A stretch of DNA of 64,000 nucleotides from Janibacter sp. A1S7 (lineage in GTDB: Bacteria > Actinomycetota > Actinomycetes > Actinomycetales > Dermatophilaceae). The DNA lies in the NCBI RefSeq assembly GCF_037198315.1, contig NZ_CP144913.1:1240001-1304000 (forward strand), read 5' to 3'. Below the pieces are notes generated by a model. The model made no database searches and was not told the DNA's origin. It worked only from the letters and a program-made list of their open reading frames with translations. Within the stretch, counting starts at the first letter, position 1, and every line of letters starts with the position of its first letter. A program made the translations under genes and the position numbers. Below are positions 20,108-44,345 of the stretch, one piece after another.

Positions 20108-20671
20108 TTACTCGTGGCTGGGGGATTCCGCGTCGCCGGCACTGGCCCGGGCGAGGACGTAGACGAGGTCGCTCATCCGGTTCAGCGTCAGCAGCACCGG
20201 GTCGGACACGGTCTGGCCGGCCCGCGCGGCGGCGACGGCGTGGCGCTCCGCCCGGCGCACGACGCCGCGCGCGAGGTCGAAGGCGGCCGAGGCGCGTGTC
20301 GCCCCCGGCACGATGAAGACGGGCTCGAGCGGGTGCTGCGCGACGAGGGCGTCGATGTCCTTCTCGACGGCCCCGACGAGGTCGGCGTCGACGAGCGAGG
20401 TACCCGGCTCGAGCCGCTCGCGTGAGTGCGGGTTGGCCATCAGGTCGGCGGCCACGACGAAGAGCCGCCGCTGGTTCGCCAGCGTCAGCTCCGCCAGGTC
20501 CGACCCGGGGTCGAGCTCGGCGCGTGCCAGGCCGAGTGCGCCGACGGCCTCGTCGATGTCACCGCAGGCCTCGATCAGCGGGTCGTCCTTGCCGACCCGG
20601 CCACCGAAGAGCCGTCCGGTCGTGCCGTCGTCCCCGGTCTTGGTGTAGATGCGTGATGCGTCGCCGCTCAT
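20108..20671 (-). CDS. Cob(I)alamin adenosyltransferase, PduO type
   Basis: A 187-residue ATP:cob(I)alamin adenosyltransferase that makes adenosylcobalamin. The ATP-binding N terminus IYTKTGDDGTTGRLFGGRV, the RRAERHAV segment and LNRMSDLVYVLAR are the hallmarks of the PduO family. The start ATG at 20671 has GGAGG upstream. Next to it, 15 nt away, lies an FAD/NAD(P)H reductase that could reduce cob(II)alamin or serve unrelated oxygenases. Adenosylcobalamin is also the chromophore expected for the CarH-like regulator 15 kb away, so this gene may supply that light sensor. The link is inference. Confidence 0.95.
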   Translation of the reverse strand: MSGDASRIYTKTGDDGTTGRLFGGRVGKDDPLIEACGDIDEAVGALGLARAELDPGSDLAELTLANQRRLFVVAADLMANPHSRERLEPGTSLVDADLVGAVEKDIDALVAQHPLEPVFIVPGATRASAAFDLARGVVRRAERHAVAAARAGQTVSDPVLLTLNRMSDLVYVLARASAGDAESPSHE

Positions 20672-31834: not shown

Positions 31835-34168
31835 TCAGAGCCCGAGGACGATCCGGTCGCCGACTGCCCGGGAGCAGCAGGACATCATCCGGTCGCCCGC
31901 GCGGCGCTCGGACCCGGACAGGACGACGTCGCGGTGGTCGACGTCGCCGTCGAGGACGGGCACCTCGCAGGTGCCGCACAGCCCTTCCCGGCAGTTGGCC
32001 GGGATGGCCCGTCCGGCATCGCGCAGGGTCTGCAGGAGGGTGCGGTCGCGGGGGACGACGAGGTCGACATCGGAGTCCGCGAGGTGCACGGTGAACTCGT
32101 GCTCGACCTCCGGGTCGAGCTCGCCGAGCGTGGAGGAGAAGTGCTCGAAGACGACCGTCCCCTCCGGCCAGTCGGCGCTGCCGGTGGTCAGGTCGTCGAT
32201 CATCCGCTGCGGGCCGCACGCGTAGAGGTGGAGGTCTCCGGCGCGACCCCGGTCGGACAGGTCGGCCATCAGCCGATGCAGGTCGGCGCGGCCCCCTTCC
32301 CCCGAGCAGTGCACCACCAGGTGCTCCCCGTGCTCGGTCGCGAGCTCGTCGACGAAGGCCATGCCCGCCCGCTCCCGACCCAGGTAGTGGATCTCGTAGG
32401 CGACGCCCTCGCGAGCGGCGTGGGCAGCCATGGCCCGGATGGGGGTGATGCCGATGCCACCGGCGACGAAGACGTAGCGCTGCGCCTGCTCGGGCAGACG
32501 GAAGTGGTTGCGCGGACCGCGGACGGTGAGGACATCCCCTTCGTGCACGTGATCGTGCACCCAGTCCGAACCGCCGCGGGACTCCTGCTCGCGCAGCACC
32601 GCGATCTCGTACTCCTGCGGTCGCGGGGTGTGCGGGACCGGACACCCCGCCGGCTGTACCGGCGCGGGCGGGCTGCCGCACAGCGAGTACTGGCGCACGA
32701 TGCCGGAGTCTGCGCACTCGACGTCGATGTGCGAGCCGGGGGTGAAGGTCGGCAGCGCGGTCCCGTCGTCGCTGACGAGGGTGATGTGCCGGACGTCGTC
32801 CGCGGCGTCGACGACGCGCACGACGCGCATCGGCCGCGAGTGGTGGGCCGCCGTCGGTTCGCCGATGTTGACCTCGACGCGCGGGCGCAGCACGCAGGGG
32901 TCGCGGCGCTCGGGGTTGTCCGCGGGATCCCACTCGACCCACAGGTGCTCCGGGCCGCGGAAGGAGGTGTTGGGCACGTAACTGAACTCCTGCGCCGCGA
33001 GCCGCATGTGCGGCAGGCGTCCGGTCAGCTCCTCGAGGAAGATCTGCATCTCCATGCGGGCGAGGTTCTTGCCCAGGCACTGGTGGGCGCCGTAGCCGAA
33101 GGTCAGGTGGTCGGCGGCGTCGTCGCGGCGCACGTCGACCAGCTCGGGGTCCTCGAACCGGCGGGTGTCGTGGTTGCCGGAGGAGGAAACCATGAGGATG
33201 CGGGCGCCCTCGGGCAGGGACACGCCACCGACCTCGGTCGGCGTGGTCGTGATGCGCCGCCACGCTGCCTGCGACCCGTTGTGCCGCAGGCACTCCTCGA
33301 CCGCGTTGGGGATGAGCGTGGGGTCGGCGCAGACCTGCTCCCAGATCTCGCGGTTCTCCAGCAGCAGCTTCACGGCGTTGGCGATGCCGTTCGCCGTGGT
33401 CTCGTGTGCGGCGACGATGCCGGCCATCATCATCGAGTGCAGGTAGGAGTCGGTGACGACCTCGGGCAGCTCGCGCTGCATCCGGATGCCGTACTGCATC
33501 CACCCGTGGTCGTCGGGGCGCTCGCGCATCCGCTCCAGGACGCCGCCGGCGTACTGCCAGAAGTTGCCGACCGCGTGGGCGACGGCGACCTGCTCCTCCG
33601 GCTCCGGCCGGCCCCAGGTGTTGACGGTGTGGGCGACGGAGTACTCCCGCAGCTTCGGCTTGTCGTCGTCGGGGACCCCGAGGAACTCCAGGGCCACGGT
33701 CAGCGGGATCTCCCAGAACATCTGGTTGACCAGGTCCGCCCGGCCGTCGTCGATGAAGGCGTCGACGTACTCGCGCACCAGGGCGCGGACCATCGGCTCG
33801 TGGTGGGCCAGGTGCTCGGGGTCGAAGGGCTCCATCAGCGCCCGCCTGCGCTCCATGTGCGCCGGCTCGTCCTCGTTCACCAGGGTGCGGTTCATCCCGT
33901 AGTCGTAGGAGGCCAGGACGTCGTTGGCCTCCTGGCTGGTGGGCGTGATCTTCTCCAGCGCGACGGCGGGGGAGAAGGTGAGGTTGTCGCGGAAGATCGC
34001 CTTGATGTCCTCGTAGCGGGTGACCACCCAGTAGTCGAGCTTGGGGCTGTAGAAGACCGGCTCGCTCTCGCGGGACCACGCCACGTAGGCCGGTGGGTCC
34101 TGCTGGTAGCCGTCACCGAAGGGGTCGAACTCGTCGGCCGGCGAGGAGATCGGACAGGCGGTGGTCAT
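31835..34168 (-). CDS. Self-sufficient cytochrome P450 fused to FMN/2Fe-2S reductase (CYP116B-like)
   Basis: A 777-residue fusion. The N-terminal P450 domain (about 1-430) has the I-helix piece IVAAHETTANGIANA, the haem-cysteine motif FGYGAHQCLGKNLARME (C364), and the clade-typical VPNTSFRGPEHLWVEWDP. A reductase of the phthalate dioxygenase reductase type follows: FMN region RQYSLCGSPP, nucleotide site VFVAGGIGITPIRAMAAH, and a C-terminal ferredoxin with C726, C731, C734 in CREGLCGTC plus a fourth Cys in MMSCCSRA. NAD(P)H thus drives hydroxylation in one chain. ATG 34168 follows GGGAGTG. A longer start would cross the palindromic operator. Located in an operon with homogentisate genes, it may make a hydroxyphenylacetate precursor. 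Substrate not proven. Confidence 0.95.
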   Translation of the reverse strand: MTTACPISSPADEFDPFGDGYQQDPPAYVAWSRESEPVFYSPKLDYWVVTRYEDIKAIFRDNLTFSPAVALEKITPTSQEANDVLASYDYGMNRTLVNEDEPAHMERRRALMEPFDPEHLAHHEPMVRALVREYVDAFIDDGRADLVNQMFWEIPLTVALEFLGVPDDDKPKLREYSVAHTVNTWGRPEPEEQVAVAHAVGNFWQYAGGVLERMRERPDDHGWMQYGIRMQRELPEVVTDSYLHSMMMAGIVAAHETTANGIANAVKLLLENREIWEQVCADPTLIPNAVEECLRHNGSQAAWRRITTTPTEVGGVSLPEGARILMVSSSGNHDTRRFEDPELVDVRRDDAADHLTFGYGAHQCLGKNLARMEMQIFLEELTGRLPHMRLAAQEFSYVPNTSFRGPEHLWVEWDPADNPERRDPCVLRPRVEVNIGEPTAAHHSRPMRVVRVVDAADDVRHITLVSDDGTALPTFTPGSHIDVECADSGIVRQYSLCGSPPAPVQPAGCPVPHTPRPQEYEIAVLREQESRGGSDWVHDHVHEGDVLTVRGPRNHFRLPEQAQRYVFVAGGIGITPIRAMAAHAAREGVAYEIHYLGRERAGMAFVDELATEHGEHLVVHCSGEGGRADLHRLMADLSDRGRAGDLHLYACGPQRMIDDLTTGSADWPEGTVVFEHFSSTLGELDPEVEHEFTVHLADSDVDLVVPRDRTLLQTLRDAGRAIPANCREGLCGTCEVPVLDGDVDHRDVVLSGSERRAGDRMMSCCSRAVGDRIVLGL

Positions 34169-34180
34169 GCAACACTCCCT

Positions 34181-34218
34181 TGTGCGGACAGCGCACACCT
34201 GTGCGCGGACTCCGCACA
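34181..34218. promoter_or_regulatory. Nested palindrome, candidate IclR operator before the P450 gene
   Basis: Outer perfect arms TGTGCGGA (34181-34188) and TCCGCACA (34211-34218) enclose inner perfect arms GCGCACA (34191-34197) and TGTGCGC (34200-34206) with a 2-nt centre. The axes differ by only one base. It lies 13-50 nt upstream of the P450 start, where a promoter would be, and the IclR-type gene is immediately upstream. This is a strong structural case for a two-dimer repressor or activator site. Confidence 0.65.
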
Positions 34219-34335
34219 ACGTAGTGCAGGCGTGATCCGTGGTCAAGAGCGTGATCGAGGCCGACGCATGGGGCGACGGGTCATGCCGGTTGGGGTGCGC
34301 GGAGCTTCGTGACGAGCCCCGAGACCGGTGACTCC

Positions 34336-35016
34336 TCAGTACAGGCGCGCCACGGCCGCCCGCGCGTCGCGGACCAGGGGGAGGAGCCGCTCGATGTCCA
34401 GGTTGCCGGGCAGGCCGAGTCGGATGACTCCGATCGACGCCTCGACGTCGGTGGTCGAGGCGTCCCCGCCGGTGCCGACGGCGATGCCGACGGCGCCCGG
34501 CTGCACTTCACCGTCGGAGATCGCGTACCCCTGCGCGCGGGACTGCTGCACGGCCTCGCTGTCGGTGACGCGTTCGGGGCGTTGGGCGAGGATCGCCAGG
34601 CCGTCGGCGCCCTGTTCGAGGGGGTGGCGGGCTCCGACCCGGTAGCTGATCCCGATGGAGCCACGAGCGGCCGGCTCGGCGACGGCGATGGCGATCGACT
34701 CGTCACCGTCGGCGATGGCGACGAAGGCGGTGCAGCCGCTGCGGTCGGCGAGATCCTGCACCACTGGCTGGGCCGAGGTGCGGTACTGGCTCATGAAGCG
34801 ACCCGCGACGACGAGGGCCCCGCTGCCGAGGCGGTAGAGACCGTCGTGCCCCTTGGCCACGAGGTGGCGCTGCTCGAGGGTGGCGAGGATCCGGTAGGCG
34901 CCGGCGCGGTGTACGCCGAGCTCGTCGGCCAGCGCGGCGGGGGAGGTGCCGCCGGTTCGCTGCGAGATGATCTCGATCGCCTCGAGCCCGCGGTCGAGCG
35001 TCTGCAGGGTGCTCAT
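34336..35016 (-). CDS. IclR-family transcriptional regulator
   Basis: A 226-residue regulator, slightly shorter than the usual 250. The N-terminal winged HTH includes TLDRGLEAIEIISQRTGG, SPAALADELGVHRAGAYRIL and a wing through DGLYRLGSGAL. The C-terminal effector-binding domain shows GCTAFVAIADGDESIAIAV, YRVGARHPLEQGADGLAIL and the closing GLPGNLDIERLLPLV. IclR proteins control aromatic and acid catabolism. It is encoded upstream of, and on the same strand as, the P450-permease-homogentisate genes, and the nested palindrome at 34181-34218 is its likely target. Its own promoter lies within 35017-35128, where I see no other obvious gene. Start ATG at 35016. Confidence 0.92.
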   Translation of the reverse strand: MSTLQTLDRGLEAIEIISQRTGGTSPAALADELGVHRAGAYRILATLEQRHLVAKGHDGLYRLGSGALVVAGRFMSQYRTSAQPVVQDLADRSGCTAFVAIADGDESIAIAVAEPAARGSIGISYRVGARHPLEQGADGLAILAQRPERVTDSEAVQQSRAQGYAISDGEVQPGAVGIAVGTGGDASTTDVEASIGVIRLGLPGNLDIERLLPLVRDARAAVARLY

Positions 35017-35128
35017 GGTCCGGTGAGTCTACGCAGCGCGCCCGCGCTGCAGGCCACGTGGTGCTCCCTCGGGCTGGGCTCCCCGGATGCCCTGCCGGCG
35101 GCGTCGGCAGGAGGGGGTCGACGGGATG

Positions 35129-35254
35129 TCAGCCGGAGTGACGGTCAACGTGGGTCGGTCCGGTCATCAGGGTCTTCTCCACCCACGCCATGGCGAAGGG
35201 AAGCAGGGCCCCGGCGACCATCCCGGCCGATGCGAGAGCGACAGTGAGTGCCAT
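35129..35254 (-). CDS. Possible small membrane protein (41 aa)
   Basis: Within the 317-nt gap between the IclR and MerR genes, a leftward frame starts at ATG 35254 (or GTG 35263) and reads MALTVALASAGMVAGALLPF, then AMAWVEKTL and a short polar tail ending in HSG. It looks like one transmembrane helix plus a tail. Ribosome-site evidence is poor. It could be a genuine small protein or chance. Nothing else in the gap is recognisable. Confidence 0.35.
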   Translation of the reverse strand: MALTVALASAGMVAGALLPFAMAWVEKTLMTGPTHVDRHSG

Positions 35255-35333
35255 GGACGCCACGGTGGCACTTCTGGCGTACCGGGTGCGGGATTGGAGC
35301 GCTGCGCCTCGCCCGGTGTCACCAAATGGTGAC

Positions 35334-36257
35334 CTACGGTTCGGCTGTCAACGAGGCGGTGAGCGCCGCTGCCGCCGGACCGAGCGCGTGACCCAAAGCG
35401 GTGACGAGTGCTCCACCCACGTCGCCCTGGCGATCACCGCCGACGGCGACGGGCACCGTGGGGTGGGAGGCGGACAACGCGTCGATGACGGCCTGCGCGG
35501 CGGGCGCGTCCTGGGCCCTGGGTATCGCGAGCACCGCGCACCGCGCGACGTGGACATCCATCGCTGCGCACCATGCGTCGGCGGGCAGGTTCGGTCCGAG
35601 GTAGACGACGTCGAGTCCGCCACGGCGCAACGCGACGGCGAAGGCGAAGATCCCCAGCTCGTGGTGGACCTCCGCAGGAAGCCCGACGATGACCGTCGGA
35701 CCGCCGGGCCGGCTGGCCGCGGCGTCGTAGGACGTGGCCAGGCGACGCAGCACCGCGTGGGCGACGAGGTGCTCGCCGGCAACCGAGATCCGCTGGTCCG
35801 CCCACGCGTCACCAACTTCTGCCAGGGCCGGCATGAGCCATCCGTCGACGACGGACTCGAAGGAGCCGGCCGCGAACCGCTCGTCGAGCACCCGGGCGAC
35901 CGCGGCCGCGTCGAGGCGCGCCGCGGCGTCCACGAGGTGCTCCGTCCTGTTCCCCGCGGCGGAGGCGTCCGCCGGGATCGGGTCCGCCGCGAGGGTGCGC
36001 AGAACGATCTCGGGGCCGGGGGGAGCGCCCTTCGCCGTCGGTGCCACCCGGGCGACCTCCTTGGCCGCTTGGCTGGGGGTCCAGCCGTCGGCCACGAGGG
36101 AGGCCAGCGCGCGGATGCGGGCCAGGCTCTCCTCGTCGTAGACCCGGTAGCCGGCCTCGGTGCGCTCGGGTTCGATGACGCCGTAGCGGCGCTCCCACGC
36201 CCGTAGGGTGGCAGCCGGTACGCCGGTCAGCTCGGCGGCGCGCTTGATCGTGTACAT
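35334..36257 (-). CDS. MerR-family regulator with B12-binding domain (CarH/LitR-like photoreceptor)
   Basis: A 307-residue regulator. The MerR HTH occupies 1-70 (MYTIKRAAELTGVPAATLRA, WERRYGVIEPERTEAGYRVY). A helical B12-capping domain contains W152-x9-E162-H163, the W-x9-EH signature of CarH-type adenosylcobalamin light sensors. The Rossmann B12 domain has AEVHHELGIFAFAVALRRGG with H199 as likely lower cobalt ligand, and VVYLGPNLPADAW. In known homologues AdoCbl makes a dark tetramer that represses, and light breaks it. Start ATG 36257 has a weak site. It follows a SRPBCC gene by 21 nt and is divergent from the lipid-modification genes, which it most likely controls. Confidence 0.9.
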   Translation of the reverse strand: MYTIKRAAELTGVPAATLRAWERRYGVIEPERTEAGYRVYDEESLARIRALASLVADGWTPSQAAKEVARVAPTAKGAPPGPEIVLRTLAADPIPADASAAGNRTEHLVDAAARLDAAAVARVLDERFAAGSFESVVDGWLMPALAEVGDAWADQRISVAGEHLVAHAVLRRLATSYDAAASRPGGPTVIVGLPAEVHHELGIFAFAVALRRGGLDVVYLGPNLPADAWCAAMDVHVARCAVLAIPRAQDAPAAQAVIDALSASHPTVPVAVGGDRQGDVGGALVTALGHALGPAAAALTASLTAEP

Positions 36258-36278
36258 CTCGGGTGGCCCGTGGGCCCC

Positions 36279-36713
36279 TCAGAGCCGGGGTAGTTCTCGG
36301 TTGAGGGCCTCCTCGGCCTCGTCGCCGAGCTTCGTCAGCGGGCCGCGCAGGAACGGGGTGGCCAGCTTGACCAGGCCCTTGAAGGTGAAGTCCGCCTCGT
36401 AGACGAGCTCGGTGCCCACACCACCCGGCCCGGGGCGGATGGACATCGTGTCCTGCACGATGACCGTCCTGTTCTCCCCGCGCATGACGACCAGGCGGTC
36501 CTCCTGCAGGTCCATGGTGACGTAGGTCAACTCGGTCTCGTTGCCGCGGAAGACCGAGCGGTTGTGGTACGTGCTACCGACCGCGCCGTCCCCCTCGACC
36601 AAGGTGGTGTCGATGGTGCCCGGGTCCCACTGGTCGCTCGTGGTGAAGTCCGACAGGTAGGCGTAGACAGCCGAAGGGGGGGTGTCGACCGTGATGGTCC
36701 GAGTGATCTTCAT
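36279..36713 (-). CDS. SRPBCC (START-like) family protein
   Basis: A 144-residue single-domain protein of the SRPBCC/polyketide-cyclase-like fold, which binds hydrophobic ligands in a deep cavity. Typical features: TRTITVDTPPSAVYAYLSDF at the N terminus, the DQWDPGT turn, alternating beta strands, and a C-terminal long helix (KLGDEAEEALNRELPRL). No signal peptide. Its ATG is 41 nt from the divergent promoter region and it is followed 21 nt downstream by the B12-type regulator, so both probably form one transcript. A role in binding a lipid or tetrapyrrole is inferred from the neighbours. Confidence 0.85.
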   Translation of the reverse strand: MKITRTITVDTPPSAVYAYLSDFTTSDQWDPGTIDTTLVEGDGAVGSTYHNRSVFRGNETELTYVTMDLQEDRLVVMRGENRTVIVQDTMSIRPGPGGVGTELVYEADFTFKGLVKLATPFLRGPLTKLGDEAEEALNRELPRL

Positions 36714-36730
36714 GCCGGGAGGCCTTCCTT

Positions 36731-36795
36731 AGACAAACATTTGACAGCCTGTTCACCGTGACTCTACCGTTTGCACGAAGGTTGAACAATCCGTC
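36731..36795. promoter_or_regulatory. Divergent promoter/operator region of the B12-regulated cluster
   Basis: On the + strand TTGACA (36741-36746) and TACCGT (36765-36770), 18 nt apart, fit a vegetative promoter for the rightward genes. The same stretch is unusually A/T-rich and carries repeats: CAAA/TTTG arms around CA at 36734-36743, ACAG/CTGT around a single C, and the related pieces TTTGACA, TTTGCAC and GTTGAACA. MerR/CarH proteins typically bind such repeats across the -35 region. The position between the divergent operons makes this the expected regulator target. Binding is not shown. Confidence 0.5.
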
Positions 36796-36862
36796 GATGT
36801 CATGGCGTCGAATCACTGGTGTCCCCCGACCCGCCGCACGATCATCCGCAGGAGCTTGCACC

Positions 36863-38176
36863 GTGACCGATTCTCCCGCCCGACCCACCCGGCCGGCCGG
36901 CCCGCGCCCCACGGCCGCCGTCGTCGGCGCCGGGGTCTCCGGACTGACCGCGGCCTACGTCCTGTCACGGACCCACGACGTCACCCTCTACGAGTCGGAC
37001 GCGCGTCTGGGGGGCCACGCCCACACCCACACCGTGGCCACGAGCACCGGCGAGGACGTGCGGGTCGACAGCGGCTTCATCGTCCACAACGAGCGGACGT
37101 ATCCGAACCTGCTGCGGTTGTTCCGCGAGCTCGATGTGCCGACCCAGCCGACGGAGATGAGCATGTCCATCACCTGCGACGGGTGCGGCCTGTCCTGGGC
37201 CGGCGGCCGTGGGCCGGGCGCGGTCCTGGCCCAACCGCGCCGGTTGCTCGACCCGCGATTCCTGCGGATGCTCGTCGAGATCCCGCGCTTCCACAAGGCC
37301 GCGAAGGCCGTCCTCGCCGGGGCCGAGGCCGTCGACGTGTCGTCGGGCACCGACCCGACGTGGGGAGAGTTCCTCGAGCGGGGCGGCTTCTCCGACTACT
37401 TCATCGCCCACTTCGCGCTCCCGCTCGTCTCCTGCGTGTGGTCCTCGGGGGACGAGGACTCCTTGCACTACCCGGCGCGGCACCTCTTCGCCTTCCTCGA
37501 CCACCACGGCATGCTCAGCGTCTCCGGATCCCCGACCTGGCGCACCGTCACCGGTGGGTCGGCCACCTACGTCGACGCACTCGCTGCCCGCTTGGGTCAG
37601 GTGCGCACGAGTGCCCGGGTCACGTCCGTGAGTCGACACCCGGACGGTGTCGACGTGCGCACGGCAGATGGTGTCACCACTTTCGACCGGACCGTCATCG
37701 CCACCCACGCCGACCAGGCACTGGAACTCCTCGCCGACGCGAGCGCGCAGGAGAAGGAGGACCTCGCGGCCATCCGCTACTCGCGCAATGCGACCGTCCT
37801 CCACCGTGACACCAGTCACCTGCCGAGCGCGAAGCGGGCCAGGGCCTCGTGGAACTACCGCAGCGCCAGCTGCGGCGGGGCGAGTGAACCGCGGGTGAGC
37901 TACTGGATGAACCGGCTGCACGGGTTCGACGAGGAGGGCGACCAGTTCCTCGTCACCCTCAACCCCGCCACCCCCGTCGACGACGGGGACGTGATCGCCC
38001 GGATGGATTACGCCCACCCCGTCTTCACCGCGGAGGCCGTCGCGGCCGCGACCCGGTTGTCCACCGCAGGCGGTGACCGGCTCGCCTTCGCCGGGGCGCA
38101 CCTGGGCTGGGGTTTCCACGAGGACGGGTGCCGCTCCGGCGTCCGGGCAGCGGAGCGCTTCGGGGTGGGATGGTGA
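36863..38176 (+). CDS. FAD-dependent amine-oxidase-like oxidoreductase (Rv0449c-like)
   Basis: A 437-residue NAD(P)/FAD-binding protein. The Rossmann loop is GAGVSG (22-27) in AAVVGAGVSGLTAAYVL, followed by YESDARLGGHAHTHTVATST and VRVDSGFIVHNERTYPNLL, typical of the group annotated as flavin-containing amine oxidase/desaturase-like. The C-terminal FAD loop is FAGAHLGWGFHEDGC. GTG at 36863 follows CAGGAG. Homologues lie beside DUF1365 and CFA-type methyltransferase in many bacteria, including the mycobacterial sigK locus. They probably modify unsaturated fatty-acyl chains. The downstream DUF1365 start overlaps this stop (TGATG). Confidence 0.9.
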   Translation: MTDSPARPTRPAGPRPTAAVVGAGVSGLTAAYVLSRTHDVTLYESDARLGGHAHTHTVATSTGEDVRVDSGFIVHNERTYPNLLRLFRELDVPTQPTEMSMSITCDGCGLSWAGGRGPGAVLAQPRRLLDPRFLRMLVEIPRFHKAAKAVLAGAEAVDVSSGTDPTWGEFLERGGFSDYFIAHFALPLVSCVWSSGDEDSLHYPARHLFAFLDHHGMLSVSGSPTWRTVTGGSATYVDALAARLGQVRTSARVTSVSRHPDGVDVRTADGVTTFDRTVIATHADQALELLADASAQEKEDLAAIRYSRNATVLHRDTSHLPSAKRARASWNYRSASCGGASEPRVSYWMNRLHGFDEEGDQFLVTLNPATPVDDGDVIARMDYAHPVFTAEAVAAATRLSTAGGDRLAFAGAHLGWGFHEDGCRSGVRAAERFGVGW

Positions 38177-38973
38177 TGAGCGTGACCCACGACGACGTGA
38201 CCGCTGAGTCCGCTCCGACCGCGCAGACCATCGAGCTGCCCACCCTGCCGGCGCTCGTCGTCGGCACGGTGAGCCACACCCGCCGCACGCCCCTGAAGCA
38301 TGCCTTCACCAACCGCCAGTACCAGTGGCTCGTCGACCTCGACGACCTGCCCCAGCACGACTGGCCGATGCGGGTGCTGACCCGGATCGAAGCCCGCGAC
38401 CACCTCGACGCAGGCCGCCTCGGAGGTGGCATCCGCGGTGACGTCGAGCGATTCCTTGCCAACCGTGGGGTCGTGCTCGACGCCTCGGACCGGGTGATCA
38501 TGCTCGCCAACGCGCGCGTGCTCGGTCACGTCTTCGACCCCCTCACCGTCTTCTGGTGCCTCTCGCCCGACGGCGCCCTGCGGGCCTGCATCTTCGAGGT
38601 GCACAACACCTACGGGGAGCGACACGCCTACCTCCTCGATGTCGACGGCACCGGTCGGGCCACGACCGAGAAGGCGTTCTACGTCTCGCCCTTCAACGAC
38701 ACCAGTGGTGAGTACGCGGTGAGCCTGCGTCTCGACCCCGGGCGGGTCACCGTCACCGTCGGCCTCGAGCGTGCGGGACGGCGCATCCTCACCGCGACCA
38801 CGACCGGCGTGCCACGAGCGGCCACGGATGGCACCGTTGTGCGCACCGCCGCCCGGCACCTGCTCATGACCTGGCGCGTCAGTGCCTGGATCCGCATCCA
38901 CGGCATCTGGCTCTGGGCACGCCGGCTCCCGATCCAGCCCCGCCGTCCCCACTCGCAGGAGAACGTCCGATGA
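38176..38973 (+). CDS. DUF1365 family protein
   Basis: A 265-residue member of DUF1365. Conserved segments: GTVSHTRRTPLKHAFTNRQY, VLGHVFDPLTVFWCLSPDG, FEVHNTYGERHAYLLDVD, EKAFYVSPFND and a C-terminal RIHGIWLWARRLP motif. The biochemical role is not known, but it is always found between an FAD oxidoreductase and a CFA-type methyltransferase, and is linked to modified membrane fatty acids in light/singlet-oxygen regulons. No signal peptide or clear membrane span. I chose ATG 38176, which overlaps the preceding stop. ATG 38170 is the alternative. The stop overlaps the next ATG (ATGA). Confidence 0.9.
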   Translation: MSVTHDDVTAESAPTAQTIELPTLPALVVGTVSHTRRTPLKHAFTNRQYQWLVDLDDLPQHDWPMRVLTRIEARDHLDAGRLGGGIRGDVERFLANRGVVLDASDRVIMLANARVLGHVFDPLTVFWCLSPDGALRACIFEVHNTYGERHAYLLDVDGTGRATTEKAFYVSPFNDTSGEYAVSLRLDPGRVTVTVGLERAGRRILTATTTGVPRAATDGTVVRTAARHLLMTWRVSAWIRIHGIWLWARRLPIQPRRPHSQENVR

Positions 38974-40244
38974 CCGCCCTGACCCCTCACGTCGACGAAC
39001 CCATCTGTCTGCGCCGCCCTGCCCTGCGGCCGTGGTGCCTGCGTGCGCACATCGCACGTCCGATCCTGTTCAAGGTGCTCGAGCGCGCACCGGTGCGGGT
39101 GGCCATGCCCGACGGGACCACCGTGGGAGGCGGCACGGGCCTGGACGCTCCCACCCTGCAGATCCTGCACCCGACTGCGCTCTTCGAGCGGATGGCCCAC
39201 CACCCCAAGATCGGCTTCGGGGAGGGGTACATGGCCGGAGACTGGGCGGCAGCGCCCGGCACCGATCTCGCCGACGCACTCGTGCCCTTCGCGCAGCGGC
39301 TGACGAGTCTCGTGCCGCCGGGGCTGGCCCGGATGCGTGGCATCGTCAACCGCCGGATCCCACGATCCACCCGCAACACGATCTTTGGTTCGCGCAAGAA
39401 CATCGAGGCGCACTACGACCTGAGCAACGACCTCTTCACCGCCTTCCTCGACGAGACCCTGAGCTACAGCTCGGCACTGTTCGATCGCAGTCGACCGCTG
39501 GCGGAGCAGAGCCTCCAGGAGGCGCAGCAGGCGAAGATCGAGGCCGTTCTCGACACAGCCGATGTCGCTGCCGGCTCGCGCGTGCTGGAGATCGGTACCG
39601 GCTGGGGATCGCTCGCGATCGCTGCCGCCCGTCGCGGCGCCACCGTCACCTCGATCACCCTCTCCCACGAGCAGGCCGCCCTCGCCGACGAGCGGATCGC
39701 GGCCGCCGACGTGGACGAGCCCGGTCTCGCCGACCGGATCGAGGTGCGGCTGCAGGACTACCGGGAGGTGGGTGGCCAGTTCGACGCGATCGTCAGCGTC
39801 GAGATGATCGAGGCCGTCGGCGAGGAGTACTGGCCGACGTACTTCCGGACCATCGACGACCTGCTCGCTCCCGGCGGGGTCGCGGCCATCCAGTCGATCC
39901 TCATGTCCCATGACCGCTACCAGGCCACGCGCAACTCCTACGGATGGATCCAGAAGCACATCTTCCCCGGGGGGCTCATCCCCTCGCAGGAGGCCATCGA
40001 GGAGACCACGGCCGAGCACACCTCGCTGCGGGTGACGTCCACCCACCGTTTCGGGCGCGACTATGCCGAGACGCTGCGCCGGTGGCGGCGGACCTTCCTG
40101 CGGCAGTGGCCCACGATCGCCGCTGCCGGTTTCGACGAGACCTTCCGTCGGAAGTGGGAGTTCTACCTCGCGTACTGCGAGGCAGGGTTCGCCGCCGACT
40201 ACATCGACGTCGCCCAGATTCGCTTCGAACGAACGAACCACTGA
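38970..40244 (+). CDS. CFA-type S-adenosylmethionine-dependent fatty-acid methyltransferase (UfaA1-like)
   Basis: A 424-residue enzyme of the cyclopropane-fatty-acyl-phospholipid synthase family. An N-terminal membrane-binding domain (about 1-130) includes GFGEGYMAGDW. The catalytic domain starts with HYDLSNDLFTAFLDETLSYS. SAM motif I is VLEIGTGWGSLAIAA (205-219), and IVSVEMIEAVGEEYWPTYF and FPGGLIPSQEAIEET follow. It adds a methyl or methylene group across or beside an acyl double bond in phospholipids. The linked FAD and DUF1365 genes argue for a branched, methylated or furan fatty acid rather than plain cyclopropane. The ATG overlaps the DUF1365 stop, and the SDR ATG overlaps its TGA. Confidence 0.93.
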   Translation: MTALTPHVDEPICLRRPALRPWCLRAHIARPILFKVLERAPVRVAMPDGTTVGGGTGLDAPTLQILHPTALFERMAHHPKIGFGEGYMAGDWAAAPGTDLADALVPFAQRLTSLVPPGLARMRGIVNRRIPRSTRNTIFGSRKNIEAHYDLSNDLFTAFLDETLSYSSALFDRSRPLAEQSLQEAQQAKIEAVLDTADVAAGSRVLEIGTGWGSLAIAAARRGATVTSITLSHEQAALADERIAAADVDEPGLADRIEVRLQDYREVGGQFDAIVSVEMIEAVGEEYWPTYFRTIDDLLAPGGVAAIQSILMSHDRYQATRNSYGWIQKHIFPGGLIPSQEAIEETTAEHTSLRVTSTHRFGRDYAETLRRWRRTFLRQWPTIAAAGFDETFRRKWEFYLAYCEAGFAADYIDVAQIRFERTNH

Positions 40245-40996
40245 TGAGCAGCCTTGTCGGCCAGCGCATCTGGCTCGTCGGTGCCTCCAGCGGCATCGGC
40301 GCAGCCCTGGCCGAGGAGCTGCACCGGCGCGGCGTCATCGTCGCGGTCAGCGCGAGAAGGGCGGAGCACCTCCGGCAGGTCGCACAGGGGCGGTTCGCGA
40401 CGGTCCCCCTCGACGTCACCGATCGTGGGGCGACGCGCAGGGCTGCGCAGGACGTGCGCAGTGCGCTCGGGCAGATCGACACCGTCATCTGGTGCGCGGG
40501 CTACTGGAAGACCTTCGAGGCGACCGACTGGCAGGCCGACGAGTTCGCCACGCACATCGAGGTCAACCTGCTCGGGCTGAACAACGTCATCGACGCGACC
40601 GTGCCGGCGATGGTCGCCGCCCGCAGCGGGCACCTCGTCGCCCTCGCCTCCGTCGCGGGCTACCGCGGGCTGTCCGGGGGAGAGGCCTACGCCGCGACGA
40701 AGGCCGCCCAGATCAACCTGCTGGAGTCGATGAGGGCCTCGCTGTCGACGAAGGACGTGCGCGTGACCACCGTGTGCCCCGGATTCGTCCGTACGGACAT
40801 GACTGCCGACAACTCCTTCCCGATGCCCTTCATCATCGACCCCGACGAGGCCGCCAGGGACATCGCCGACGGGTTGGCGGCGGACGCGATCGAGATCGTC
40901 TTCCCACGTCGGATGGCCGTGACGATGAAGATCGCCCGCGTCCTGCCCGTGCGGCTGTGGACGGCGATCACCGCTCGACTGGCGGGCTCCTCGTGA
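40244..40996 (+). CDS. Short-chain dehydrogenase/reductase
   Basis: A 250-residue classical SDR. Cofactor loop GASSGIG (13-19), CAGYW in place of the usual NNAG, active-site Ser in VALASVAGYRGLSGG and YxxxK in YAATK. The C-terminal part (FPRRMAVTMKIARVLPVRLW) ends in a basic amphipathic helix that could bind the membrane, in line with an acyl-lipid substrate. ATG at 40244 overlaps the methyltransferase stop by one base. It belongs to the same light-type cluster, where an SDR accompanies the CFA enzyme in several LitR-regulated loci. The substrate is not known. Confidence 0.9.
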   Translation: MSSLVGQRIWLVGASSGIGAALAEELHRRGVIVAVSARRAEHLRQVAQGRFATVPLDVTDRGATRRAAQDVRSALGQIDTVIWCAGYWKTFEATDWQADEFATHIEVNLLGLNNVIDATVPAMVAARSGHLVALASVAGYRGLSGGEAYAATKAAQINLLESMRASLSTKDVRVTTVCPGFVRTDMTADNSFPMPFIIDPDEAARDIADGLAADAIEIVFPRRMAVTMKIARVLPVRLWTAITARLAGSS

Positions 40997-41087
40997 CCGT
41001 CGGTCTGCGTCCTCCGTGCGGAACCGAGCACGCCACGCAGCGTCGTGGGACGCTCGAGGGACACGAGTCGACGCCGAGGAGGTGACG

Positions 41088-41810
41088 GTGACGAACCCGG
41101 TCCGCGAGTTGCGCGACTTCGCCGCGGCGGCGCTCGTGGAGCCGGTGCCGCGGGATCACACGGAGCCGGACGCGCTCTTCCGCAGACGTCGTGTCGTGAC
41201 CGCGGTGACGCTCGTCGTCGGCTCGGTCATCCTCGGCGCCACGCTGCGCATCCCCCCCGGGGACGACCTGTTCTACATCGGCGGTCTCGGGCTGGCCGCG
41301 GTCTGGATCGCCGGGGGGTTGGCTGCCGGTCGACTCCACCTGGGCTGGGCCCACACCCGGGAGGAGGGCTTCGCCCGTCCCGTCGTCCAGCCCTTGGCGC
41401 TGGCAGCCCTCGCGATCGGCATCTTCACGGCCGGGGCGGTCGTCGTGGGGCAGATCCCGTGGCTCGCCGGTGCGGTCGACGAGGTGCTCGACCACGCACG
41501 CTACGGGTCGCTGGGGCTCATCTGGGCGATCACCGTCATCAACGGCATCGGGGAGGAGCTGTTCTTTCGAGGGGCCCTCTTCGCCGCCGTCGGACGCCGC
41601 CACGCCCTCGCCATCACGACTGCCGTCTACGTCCTGGCCACCGCGGCCACCGGCAACCTCATGCTTGCCGTCGCCGCCCTCCTGCTCGGTCTGCTCACGG
41701 GGGCCCAGCGCCGGGTCACCGGTGGCGTCCTCGCCCCGATCATCACCCACGTCCTGTGGTCCAGTGCCATGCTCCTGCTCCTCCCGCCCGTCCTCGACCT
41801 CGTCAGGTGA
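41088..41810 (+). CDS. CPBP-family intramembrane metalloprotease
   Basis: A 240-residue membrane protein with about seven hydrophobic segments and the CPBP (Abi) motifs: EELFFRG with E156, E157 and R161 in GIGEELFFRGALFAAVGR, and a C-terminal His in IITHVLWSSAML. The family includes prenyl-processing proteases and uncharacterised proteins. The start GTG at 41088 has GAGGAGG with 5-nt spacing, and is preferred to GTG at 41082. It is 91 nt after the SDR stop and 4 nt before the SDR-TspO fusion, on the same strand. Role in the lipid cluster unknown, perhaps processing of a lipid-linked or light-stress target. Confidence 0.88.
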   Translation: MTNPVRELRDFAAAALVEPVPRDHTEPDALFRRRRVVTAVTLVVGSVILGATLRIPPGDDLFYIGGLGLAAVWIAGGLAAGRLHLGWAHTREEGFARPVVQPLALAALAIGIFTAGAVVVGQIPWLAGAVDEVLDHARYGSLGLIWAITVINGIGEELFFRGALFAAVGRRHALAITTAVYVLATAATGNLMLAVAALLLGLLTGAQRRVTGGVLAPIITHVLWSSAMLLLLPPVLDLVR

Positions 41811-41814
41811 AACC

Positions 41815-43236
41815 ATGAACGAACACACATCCACTCCCGGGACCCGCGGCACCGTCCTGGTCACCGGAGCGACGGGCTACATCGGTGGGCTGCTCGTGCC
41901 GAGGCTGCTCGAGGCCGGCTGGAACGTGCGCGCCCTGAGCCGGTCGGCCGAGCGGCTGCGCTCTCGGGACTGGGCCGGCCACATCGAGATCGTCGAGGGT
42001 GACGTCACCTCCGGTGAGGACCTGCGTGAGGCGCTGGCCGGGGTCGACGTCGCCTACTACCTGGTGCACTCCATGGACGGCGGCGGGGACCTGGCCCGGC
42101 GCGACCGCGAGCTGGCCCAGGGTTTCGCCACCGCTGCGGCGGACGAGGGGGTCGGGCGCATCGTCTACCTCGGCGGACTGCACCCCGAGGGCGCCGACCT
42201 CTCGGTCCACCTCGCCTCCCGGGTCGAGGTCGGTCAGGTGCTCCTCGACGCTCCCGTGCCTGCGGCGGTGCTTCAGGCCGCGGTCATCCTCGGTGACGGG
42301 TCGGTTTCCTTCGACATGCTGCGCTACCTGACCGAGCGGCTGCCCGCGATGGTCGCCCCGCGCTGGTTGCGCAACCGGATCCAGCCGATCGCCGTCGACG
42401 ACGCGCTGCACTACCTCGTGGGGGCGGCCGGACTGCCTGCGCAGATCAACCGCACCTTCGACATCGGGGGACCCGAGGTGCTGACCTACGAGGAGATGAT
42501 CCAGCGGTTCGCCTCGGTCAACGGTCTTCGCCGGCGTCTGATCGTCGGGGTGCCGGTGCTGACCCCGTGGCTGGCCAGCCACTGGGTGGGTGTGATCACA
42601 CCGGTCGAGGCCGATGTCGCGAAGCCGCTCGTCGGCAGCCTGGTCCACGAGGTCGTCCGGCGGGAGTGGGACCTCGACGAGTACGTGGGGCTCCCGGCTG
42701 ATGGGTTGCTCGGATTCGACGAGGCGGTCGACAGGGCGATGCGTGGTGTCCGTCCCGACCGCGCGCTGCGTGACGTGCTGACGGTCACCGGGGCGAGTGT
42801 TGCCAGCGCCACCATCGGCGCAGTGGCCACGCAGCCGGACAGCCGCTGGTACCGCTCGCTGGACCTGCCGTCGTGGCAGCCCCCGACGATTGCCTTCCCG
42901 CTGGTGTGGACCCCGCTGTACGCCGACATCGCAGCGACGTCGATCGCCACCCTCTCCCGCCTCGAAGGAGAGGGGAGGGTCGAGGAGGCCGCCCGGTACC
43001 GACGGGCCCTGTGGGCCAACCTTGCGCTCAACACCGCCTGGAGCGTGCTCTTCTGGCGAGTGCGTCGCCCGGCGCTGGCGGCCGCGGAGGCCGGGGCGCT
43101 CGCGGTCAGCTCTGCGGACCTGGCGCGTCGCGCCGGATCGGCCGACGGGCGCGCGGGCTGGGCGCTCGTGCCGTACGCGGCGTGGACGGCCTTCGCCGCC
43201 GTGCTGTCGACGGCGATCGCCCGACGCAACTGCTGA
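41815..43236 (+). CDS. Fusion of NAD(P)-binding SDR domain and TspO/MBR domain
   Basis: A 473-residue two-domain protein. Residues 1-300 are an extended SDR/NmrA-like Rossmann domain: VTGATGYIGG (loop 18-24), AYYLVHSMDGGGDL, RIVYLGGLHP, FDIGGPEVLTYEEM. From about 320 comes a five-helix TspO (tryptophan-rich sensory protein) domain: WYRSLDLPSWQPPTIAFPLV (W345 on), WTPLYADIAATS, LWANLALNTAWSVLFWRVR, and LVPYAAWTAFAAVLSTAIAR. TspO binds porphyrins and is tied to tetrapyrrole handling and light stress. ATG 41815 follows AGGTGA 4 nt after the CPBP stop. This is the last gene of the B12-controlled cluster. Separate domains would be ordinary. The fusion suggests a membrane-bound NAD(P)H reductase for a tetrapyrrole or lipid. 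Confidence 0.9.
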   Translation: MNEHTSTPGTRGTVLVTGATGYIGGLLVPRLLEAGWNVRALSRSAERLRSRDWAGHIEIVEGDVTSGEDLREALAGVDVAYYLVHSMDGGGDLARRDRELAQGFATAAADEGVGRIVYLGGLHPEGADLSVHLASRVEVGQVLLDAPVPAAVLQAAVILGDGSVSFDMLRYLTERLPAMVAPRWLRNRIQPIAVDDALHYLVGAAGLPAQINRTFDIGGPEVLTYEEMIQRFASVNGLRRRLIVGVPVLTPWLASHWVGVITPVEADVAKPLVGSLVHEVVRREWDLDEYVGLPADGLLGFDEAVDRAMRGVRPDRALRDVLTVTGASVASATIGAVATQPDSRWYRSLDLPSWQPPTIAFPLVWTPLYADIAATSIATLSRLEGEGRVEEAARYRRALWANLALNTAWSVLFWRVRRPALAAAEAGALAVSSADLARRAGSADGRAGWALVPYAAWTAFAAVLSTAIARRNC

Positions 43237-43244
43237 AGCCGTGA

Positions 43245-43382
43245 GGCGACCGGTTCAAGTCCACGGACGACGAACTGGCAGGACAGCGAAAGGTGCGCCT
43301 TGCGCTGCTGGCCGACAACGACGCGGAGGAGGTCGGCGAGTTCACGGCACTCGAGAATGCCCGAGCGCGGGGGACCTCCTGA
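43245..43382 (+). pseudogene. Possible 3' remnant of an unknown gene
   Basis: Between the TspO fusion and the TauE/SafE gene an open rightward frame without a start codon at its head reads FKSTDDELAGQRKV, RLALLADNDAEEVGEF and TALENARARGTS before a stop. The composition resembles a real protein tail (acidic, helical) and not the neighbouring genes in other frames. It lacks a proper N terminus, so it may be a decayed gene end. I recognise no family. Chance coding cannot be excluded. Confidence 0.25.
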
Positions 43383-43384
43383 TC

Positions 43385-44137
43385 TCAGCCACTGATCACC
43401 TGCGAGAGCCCGCGCACGAGCGTCGCGCTCGACCCGATGACCACGAGGACCACGGCCACCCGCCGTGCCGTTGCCGCCGACACGCGCCGGGAGACCCACG
43501 TGCCGACGAGCACGCCCACCGGCACCGTTCCCACGGTGGCCGCGATCAGGGGCCACGACGGAAGCTGGCTCGTGTCACTGGCACCGACGAGCAGTTTCGT
43601 TACCACCGACGCCACACCCATGGTCAGGAAGATCGGCTGCAGCGTGGCGGCGAAGGGCCGCTGCTCCCATCGGGTCACCTGGGCGTAGACGAGCATCACG
43701 GCGGCCGCGACCCCGACGGCCGTGTTGAGGAAACCGCCGACGAAGCCGGCGACCAGACCCGCCACCAGCGGCGGCACCTGGCCCAGTGGTGGCAACAGCG
43801 AGGACGCCGCCAGTGAGAGCAGCAGCGTGGCACCGATGATCACCTCGAGCCACCCGGAGCCGGTCGCGTACACGAGCAGCGCAGCGGGTACGGATCCGGC
43901 GACGATGGTCGGCGCGACCCGCACGTAGCGCCCCCAGTCGATGTCGGTGCGGACCGCGTACGTCAGGACGACGGCCGCCGCCACGGTGGTCGCGTTCGTC
44001 AGCAGGATCCCCGTGACGGGGCCGATCGCGAGAGTCAGCGTCGGGGAGAGCACCAGCCCGGTGCCCATGCCACTCGTGCGCTGCAGGGTGATCCCCAGGA
44101 TGACGGCGCCGATGACGACGAGGAGCACCGTACTCAC
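43385..44137 (-). CDS. TauE/SafE-family membrane permease
   Basis: A 250-residue protein with about eight hydrophobic helices and the TauE/SafE pattern of two repeats: GMGTGLVLSPTLTLAIGPVT near the N terminus and VAGLVAGFVGGFLNTAVGVA in the middle. Relatives export or import sulfonates, sulfite or related anions. GTG at 44137 is the only suitable start and has GGACGG upstream. It faces away from a 278-nt region upstream that contains a hairpin and the small membrane gene at 44416. No sulfur-metabolism genes are visible next to it, so the substrate stays unassigned. Confidence 0.88.
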   Translation of the reverse strand: MSTVLLVVIGAVILGITLQRTSGMGTGLVLSPTLTLAIGPVTGILLTNATTVAAAVVLTYAVRTDIDWGRYVRVAPTIVAGSVPAALLVYATGSGWLEVIIGATLLLSLAASSLLPPLGQVPPLVAGLVAGFVGGFLNTAVGVAAAVMLVYAQVTRWEQRPFAATLQPIFLTMGVASVVTKLLVGASDTSQLPSWPLIAATVGTVPVGVLVGTWVSRRVSAATARRVAVVLVVIGSSATLVRGLSQVISG

Positions 44138-44345
44138 CCGTCCAATGTAGGTCGTGGCGCCAGCAGTCGATGGTCGAGGTGGCGGCGTTGTCAGTGGTCA
44201 CTGTCAGAGTTTCACGTGTCCACACAGGACACGAAGGGGAGTGACCGGGGCGACCGGGGCGGTGGACGGGGAGGTCCGCCGGCCAGCGCATCAGCAGTCA
44301 GTGAGCTGTCCGGTCGCTCGGGGGGATCGCAGGTGCGGTACCGCC

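Follow-up and report, generated by a model that had tools for sequence, protein, structure and literature searches.

Light-dependent repressors of the CarH and LitR type are described from several bacterial groups, and the cited papers are represented here by parts of their text. For CarH, the protein motif ExHx2G-x41-SxV/T-x22-27-GG and an 11-bp operator repeat of consensus nAnnTnnACAn, placed in tandem over the promoter, were reported (PMC8156234), and a light signature consisting of GxxW, EH, GxxH and GxxxP was defined (PMC11796333). In Pseudomonas, the cluster controlled by the class II LitR proteins PplR1/PmlR1 is light-inducible and repressed in the dark (PMC9758184). Among lipid-modifying systems, the bfa operon combines a flavin adenine dinucleotide (FAD)-dependent enzyme and a methyltransferase without DUF1365, and BfaAB-type enzymes were selected for a conserved Cfa bicarbonate site (PMC5660069, PMC7791843). 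The locus compared with these systems here lies at 35334-43236 of a 64,000-nucleotide stretch of Janibacter sp. A1S7 DNA (the window; positions 1240001-1304000 of the complete 3.36-Mb genome). It possesses a conserved gene content, operator-like repeats, promoter-like sequences and a regulator with a CarH-like fold and key residues. Judged from sequence and a structural model, it is probably a CarH/LitR-type light-regulated photoprotection operon.

The rightward operon begins with an FAD-dependent oxidoreductase of the amine oxidase type (36863-38176, + strand; PF01593, 112.7 bits), which starts with GTG at 36863. It is followed by a DUF1365 protein (38170 or 38176 to 38973, +; PF07103, 208.8 bits), a cyclopropane fatty acid (CFA)/UfaM-type S-adenosylmethionine methyltransferase (38970-40244, +; PF02353, 277.7 bits), a short-chain dehydrogenase (SDR; 40244-40996, +; PF00106, 140.9 bits), a CPBP/Rce1-like membrane protein (41088-41810, +; PF02517, 46.8 bits) and a fusion of an NmrA-like NAD(P)-binding domain with TspO (41815-43236, +; PF13460, 66.2 bits; PF03073, TspO_MBR, 109.6 bits against a cut-off of 24, at the C-terminal end). 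The first four genes are chained by a TGATG junction or a 7-nt overlap, depending on the choice of the DUF1365 start, then by ATGA and by a second TGATG. The CPBP gene most likely starts with GTG at 41088, 91 nt beyond the SDR stop, and the fusion with ATG at 41815, 4 nt beyond the CPBP stop. On the opposite strand are an SRPBCC/Polyketide_cyc2 gene (36279-36713, -; PF10604, 63.3 bits), the first of the leftward unit, and the gene of the CarH/LitR-like MerR regulator with a B12-binding domain (307 amino acids; 35334-36257, -). All genes named in the preliminary description were identified by Pfam at the positions it gave, and the overlapping stops and starts that it proposed were observed. It was also correct that the MerR gene diverges from the operon, but the intervening SRPBCC gene had been overlooked; the leftward unit starts with this gene, and MerR comes second.

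The regulator matched the Pfam profiles MerR_1 (57.7 bits) and B12-binding_2 (44.8 bits) above cut-off. The B12-binding Rossmann domain scored 29.2 bits against a cut-off of 32.1, and a second profile search just reached 32.1. In its AlphaFold (AF2) model (pLDDT 86.7), all 50 PDB matches listed were Thermus thermophilus CarH/LitR. According to Pfam and the model, the protein has the architecture of CarH and class I LitR, with an N-terminal MerR DNA-binding region and a C-terminal helical bundle and Rossmann domain. The B12 Rossmann domain suggested earlier thus has the CarH-like predicted fold in its favor, while its Pfam score is only at or below cut-off. The W-x9-EH signature, which was also claimed for the regulator, is present as WADQRISVAGEH. 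Along with the axial histidine, it is conserved in all 24 aligned regulators, that of the window included. The regulator keeps the His, Gly and GG of the published CarH motif and three of the four elements of the light signature, but deviates from both at other positions. In the myxobacterial loci L160 and L165, the motif script distinguished adjacent proteins with and without Wx9EH, in agreement with the known CarH and CarA neighbours (PMC8156234), which serves as a check of the script. Class V LitR, which occurs in Micrococcales and has no B12 domain (PMC9758184), was ruled out on account of the B12-type domain of the window regulator.

Between the two divergent units, two operator-like sites were found on the + strand. 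Site A (36726-36747) is composed of two 11-bp direct repeats with T at position 5 and ACA at positions 8-10 and overlies the -35 of a rightward promoter (36741-36770, +), which reads TTGACA-N18-TACCGT with TTGACA at 36741-36746 and TACCGT at 36765-36770. Site B (36768-36789) is a second 11-bp repeat pair over the -35 of a leftward promoter, TTGTTC-N17-TAGAGT (36761-36789, -), whose -10 overlaps the rightward -10. The promoters were first recognised by eye in the conserved alignment and then checked with purpose-written patterns. With these patterns, made after inspection of the alignment, TTGACA-N18-TAnnnT was detected in the intergenic regions of 13/13 Janibacter loci, as was the leftward promoter in a loose form. 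A strict sigma-70 and terminator scan called no promoter at the locus, including the rightward one.

The window repeats match the published consensus in their 11-bp period, T5 and ACA8-10, though not at position 2. All 13 Janibacter loci had a pair of the form T..ACA.{5}T..ACA in the 600 bp preceding the regulator gene. In total, these upstream regions (8,008 bp) held 25 pairs and the other 212,925 bp none, and the reversed-pattern control gave 0 and 0. In other actinobacteria, 16 of 30 loci possess a pair upstream of the regulator, with 20 pairs in 17,989 bp upstream against 6 in the remaining 443,778 bp (control 0 and 1). One locus per genome was counted and the loci are related, hence these figures do not represent independent events. 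The count left out second loci of a genome (L060, L095, L073 and L097), a locus with no regulator (L058), the fragment in G015 and the Chloroflexi loci L106, L113 and L116. Across the genome, a stricter repeat 20-mer with up to three mismatches gave one site (control 0), and the idea of a wider regulon beyond the locus was dropped because of this single site. A looser pattern gave seven matches (control 0), two of them in the operon promoter. The remainder comprised one perfect pair elsewhere, a palindrome that scored once per strand and two further matches, and none of these was accepted as a regulon member.

A complete photolyase gene was found by blastp between the SDR and CPBP genes in 6 of the 12 Janibacter relatives, and G002 carries a photolyase 3' remnant. 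The photolyase query and three loci of other genera were confirmed by Pfam. In the window, the 91-nt gap after the SDR gene matched the photolyase 3' end of G005 by blastn (77% over 48 nt, E 3.9e-6). Within it, the segment 41026-41085 (+) corresponds to the last ~20 codons, and its C-terminal residue string matches photolyase. This scar indicates that a photolyase gene once belonged to the operon in the window lineage, and so connects the operon with light. The sole photolyase detected in this genome is at 143575-144138, and the genome scan gave no repeat-pattern match there.

Recurrence of the gene order in other actinobacteria, proposed as a check in the preliminary description, was found both within the genus and in other genera. 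Among 15 other Janibacter genomes searched, 12 possess the full-length regulator (E 3.2e-101 or better). G015, which is 79% complete, has only a regulator fragment, and G001 and G003 show a weak match limited to the DNA-binding end. The order regulator-SRPBCC / FAD-DUF1365-CFA-SDR-CPBP-NmrA is kept in all 12 genomes with the full-length regulator; the cluster is divided between two contig ends in G012, and the FAD gene is in two frames in G004. The same layout was observed in G030, G031 and Terrabacter sp. Root181 (L101), with no SDR match in G031 and L101. G050, from another family, shows regulator-SRPBCC / FAD-DUF1365-CFA-SDR-photolyase, and in G016, G020, G026 and G027 distant regulators (31-37% identity) adjoin FAD-DUF1365-CFA. 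Named genomes were scanned with an alignment of 10 regulator orthologues including that of the window, and the best 80 of 585 candidates were kept. In L131, L154 and L156, which are gammaproteobacterial records, a CarH-like regulator has FAD-DUF1365-CFA nearby, suggesting that the association of the regulator with this trio crosses phyla. The placement of such a regulator beside a photoprotection operon is thus supported by its fold and motifs, the direct repeats, the photolyase of the relatives and conservation across genera.

Several observations weigh against a light-regulated CarH-type operon. In the window regulator, ExHx2G reads VxHxxG with the Glu one place earlier, SxV/T reads AxP, and GxxH of the light signature reads ExxH, the last position being NxxH in G012 and GxxH in the remaining 11 genus relatives. 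The NCBIfam CarH equivalog NF052513 was reached with only 115.2 bits against a cut-off of 400, and for this reason the regulator was classified as CarH-like and not as CarH itself. It has Ala after the Trp where T. thermophilus CarH (TtCarH) has His132, and TtCarH H132A is mostly tetrameric under light, contrary to an earlier report (PMC10442372). However, CtMerR, described as light-responsive, has Arg at this position (PMC11796333), and His was found there in just 12 of 104 CarH-like sequences (108 examined, 4 of them without Wx9EH, with a few genomes counted twice). At the DNA level, the window repeats have C where the published consensus has A (position 2), and the degenerate site B of the window reads ACG/ACA; this site is intact in all 12 same-genus relatives. 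No exact repeat pair was present in 14 of the 30 other actinobacterial loci, and another perfect pair is located beside a TipAS-type MerR gene (L206 6160-6177; genome 3247159-3247176). This pair lies between the TipAS-type MerR and CHRD-domain genes, near a glutathione peroxidase, and may be a target of the window regulator or of another regulator. Among the 80 named regulator loci, photolyase was present in just 16, and FAD and DUF1365 matches were both present in 9 (L100, L101, L103, L115, L131, L154, L156, L161 and L174); many of the 80 loci are short or distant in sequence from the window. Some of their regulator neighbours have no evident light link, such as an OpuAC-type binding protein, a 5'-nucleotidase domain protein and an acyl-CoA dehydrogenase. 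The regulators of G032 and G035, although good matches (49% and 43%), are not next to FAD-DUF1365-CFA.

For the light-regulated operon, a mechanism can be proposed in which adenosylcobalamin (AdoCbl) binding, the light response, the enzyme products and the role of TspO are inferred. In the dark, the AdoCbl-loaded regulator would bind the 11-bp direct repeats over the two face-to-face promoters (36726-36789) and repress two operons, FAD-DUF1365-CFA-SDR-CPBP-NmrA::TspO and the SRPBCC-regulator operon in which it is itself encoded. In light, the Co-C bond would be cleaved, the repressor released and the operon expressed. The FAD oxidoreductase, DUF1365 protein and methyltransferase would in turn modify unsaturated acyl chains of the membrane by methylation and oxidation, with methyl-branched or furan fatty acids as the probable products, guarding the membrane against photo-oxidation. 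The NmrA-TspO fusion may act on membrane porphyrins or oxidised lipophiles.

The genes of the CFA-type methyltransferase, FAD oxidoreductase and DUF1365 protein occur together in the window, and the same trio was found in all 12 same-genus clusters. UfaD of Rhodobacter sphaeroides is a flavoprotein. By gene set, the FAD, DUF1365 and CFA proteins correspond to the furan fatty acid set UfaD/UfaO/UfaM of that species (PMC7380195). Beside this trio, a second CFA-like gene with ~30% identity to that of the window was observed in several members of the family (L072, L075, L081, L086, L087 and L089). At two positions that hold bicarbonate-site residues in E. coli Cfa, a Cys and a His, the window methyltransferase has Ser and Gln. 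Among the aligned sequences listed, the trio CFA of the gammaproteobacterial L131 and L154 shares this Ser and Gln, whereas several of the second CFA copies retain the Cys. These substitutions hint that the methyltransferase product is perhaps not a plain cyclopropane. Formation of BfaAB-type 10-methyl fatty acids was disfavoured as well, since the bfa operon is without DUF1365 and the window enzyme has Ser and Gln at the two bicarbonate-site positions.

The model of the fusion protein shows a Rossmann domain followed by five long C-terminal helices (318-473). The nearest matches of the Rossmann domain were triphenylmethane reductase and further proteins of the SDR type, some of them NDUFA9-like. 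Alignment of 20 of the 21 distinct fusions, with the window included and L068 omitted, showed that W346, Y347, P357, P358, W366, Y370, W410 and W458 are invariant. Among the matches listed from 296 genomes of the class, six span both domains, the window counted, and all belong to the same family; the remaining ones stop at or shortly past the NmrA half. Three checked NmrA homologues (58-64% identity) and the in-cluster homologue of G020 have a C-terminal DUF2867 and no TspO, and G020 has a separate TspO gene within the cluster. In Enemella (L123), a fusion is also found ~8 kb from the regulator. TspO had been counted as part of the photoprotection unit. The fusion is indeed present and is intact in 7 of 13 Janibacter (the window and 6 of 12 relatives), but among the other six relatives it is absent or cut off in G002, G004, G005, G006 and G009 and broken in G007, so TspO seems to be an optional part of the module.

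The CPBP protein had been named an intramembrane protease. Glutamic proteases of the CPBP family are characterized by three motifs, EExxxR, FxxxH and a further one with His. All 21 aligned sequences have EExxxR and the last His, and no His was found at the FxxxH position. The protease label is therefore doubtful.

The departure of the regulator from the published B12 motifs and its B12-binding Pfam match at or under cut-off would fit a different sensor, namely a B12-independent CarA-like repressor or a sensor of AdoCbl supply or redox state, with cobalamin shortage or oxidative stress inducing the operon and light acting indirectly. Class II LitRs, thought not to bind B12, also govern a similar Pseudomonas set through LOV proteins (PMC9758184). 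This explanation is nevertheless unlikely. Wx9EH is missing from CarA (PMC8156234) and kept in every aligned regulator (24/24), the presence or absence of this motif separates the adjacent proteins of L160 and L165 as for CarH and CarA, and the photolyase carried in the operon by relatives argues against a B12-independent or non-light regulator. It is very unlikely that the locus is an ordinary membrane-lipid stress operon whose regulator no longer senses light. In favour of such a loss, the regulator has diverged faster within the genus, with 57-67% identity to that of the window against mostly 70-91% for the enzymes. Against it, each of the 13 Janibacter clusters retains the axial His, Wx9EH and one repeat pair or more.

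The operon could also consist of two modules, with FAD-DUF1365-CFA-SDR under the regulator and CPBP-NmrA-TspO transcribed separately for an unrelated function. CPBP-NmrA(-TspO) without FAD-DUF1365-CFA was seen in stretches from L083, L084, L088 and L184-L186, and the FAD trio without the CPBP-NmrA module in L078, L081 and L087. A division of this kind appears improbable in view of G033, where the regulator and a repeat pair adjoin SRPBCC-NmrA-CPBP-photolyase and the FAD trio is elsewhere in the genome, suggesting that the CPBP-NmrA module also goes with the regulator. Photolyase adjoins this module in G021, G028, G103 and G321 too. No terminator-like site was called in 34900-44300, which is weak evidence as shuffled sequences gave 1.5.

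In favour of the proposed light switch, two cobalamin adenosyltransferases were identified in the genome, one at 20108-20671 (-) of the window and another at 877792-878322. The former adjoins a DUF1989 gene and is 15 kb away from the B12 regulator. A profile search for phytoene/squalene synthase (PF00494) found none in this genome. Control by a CarH-type switch in the absence of carotenoids would be a notable point of the locus, the absence having been checked in this genome only. Also in favour of the light switch, regulator homologues of Tessaracoccus (L118) and Enemella (L123), with 37-39% identity, are divergent from a NUDIX and polyprenyl synthetase open reading frame and an amine-oxidase-family gene, which looks like a carotenoid-type set; phytoene synthase was not sought there. 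Downstream of the window regulator is an IclR-type gene (34336-35016, -), which is near it in several Janibacter genomes with or without intervening DNA. A long open reading frame (31835-34246, -) resembles a fusion of cytochrome P450 and ferredoxin reductase, as judged by eye from the translation.

The coordinates of the operators and promoters give a testable prediction, that a B12 light repressor governs membrane-lipid chemistry and not pigments in Micrococcales. The fusion hints at the function of TspO by giving it a covalent partner that resembles a reductase dependent on NAD(P)H. CarH-like proteins that naturally have no His132 offer a way to ask how the switch works when bis-His ligation is impossible. 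As a doubtful but possible extension, the CarH-type B12 photoreceptor of an actinobacterium with no detectable carotenoid pathway may have been rewired to membrane-lipid methylation and oxidation and to a novel bifunctional membrane enzyme, an NAD(P)H-reductase-TspO with TspO replacing DUF2867, that binds light-sensitising porphyrins or oxidised lipids and destroys them by reduction, the switch working without the His132 bis-His step.

The preliminary description regarded the unit as a whole as undescribed, which does not hold for its core. The Pseudomonas PplR1/PmlR1 cluster likewise joins a LitR-family regulator with phrB, SDR, FAD oxidoreductase and ufaM genes. Of the B12 domain, its class II LitR retains just the 4-helix bundle; a LOV protein relieves the repression, and the sites are TGTACA-N12-TGTACA; neither NmrA-TspO nor CPBP is named in the available part of that account (PMC9758184). 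The set with DUF1365 is known from the singlet-oxygen regulon of R. sphaeroides, which shares the UfaD, UfaO, UfaM/CfaS, SDR and PhrA enzyme kinds with the window and its relatives (PMC7074977, PMC7380195). Unlike the window, that set is under the extracytoplasmic function (ECF) sigma/anti-sigma pair RpoE/ChrR and has no B12 repressor. CarH of T. thermophilus and Bacillus megaterium resembles the window regulator in fold, Wx9EH, axial His and 11-bp repeats over the promoter (PMC8156234). These proteins are known for carotenogenesis. The window regulator differs in its variant ExHx2G and GxxH motifs, in the absence of the His132 of TtCarH and in its neighbours, which form a lipid-modification operon in a genome where no phytoene synthase was detected. 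The light-induced phrB-tspO-mmpL2 of Mycobacterium kansasii, also an actinobacterium, combines TspO and photolyase, but its TspO gene is a separate one and the regulator discussed is the MarR-type CrtR; the text of that paper contains no DUF1365 or cyclopropane terms (PMC9861118). In the parts of the open PubMed Central literature searched, neither an NmrA-TspO fusion nor an actinobacterial CarH operon of such composition was found. Actinobacterial NmrA-DUF2867 proteins share the homologous NAD(P)-binding half and differ in their C-terminus, which is DUF2867 where the window has TspO. What appears to be new is therefore an actinobacterial CarH-like version of the system with an NmrA-TspO fusion, in which TspO replaces the DUF2867 of the homologues.

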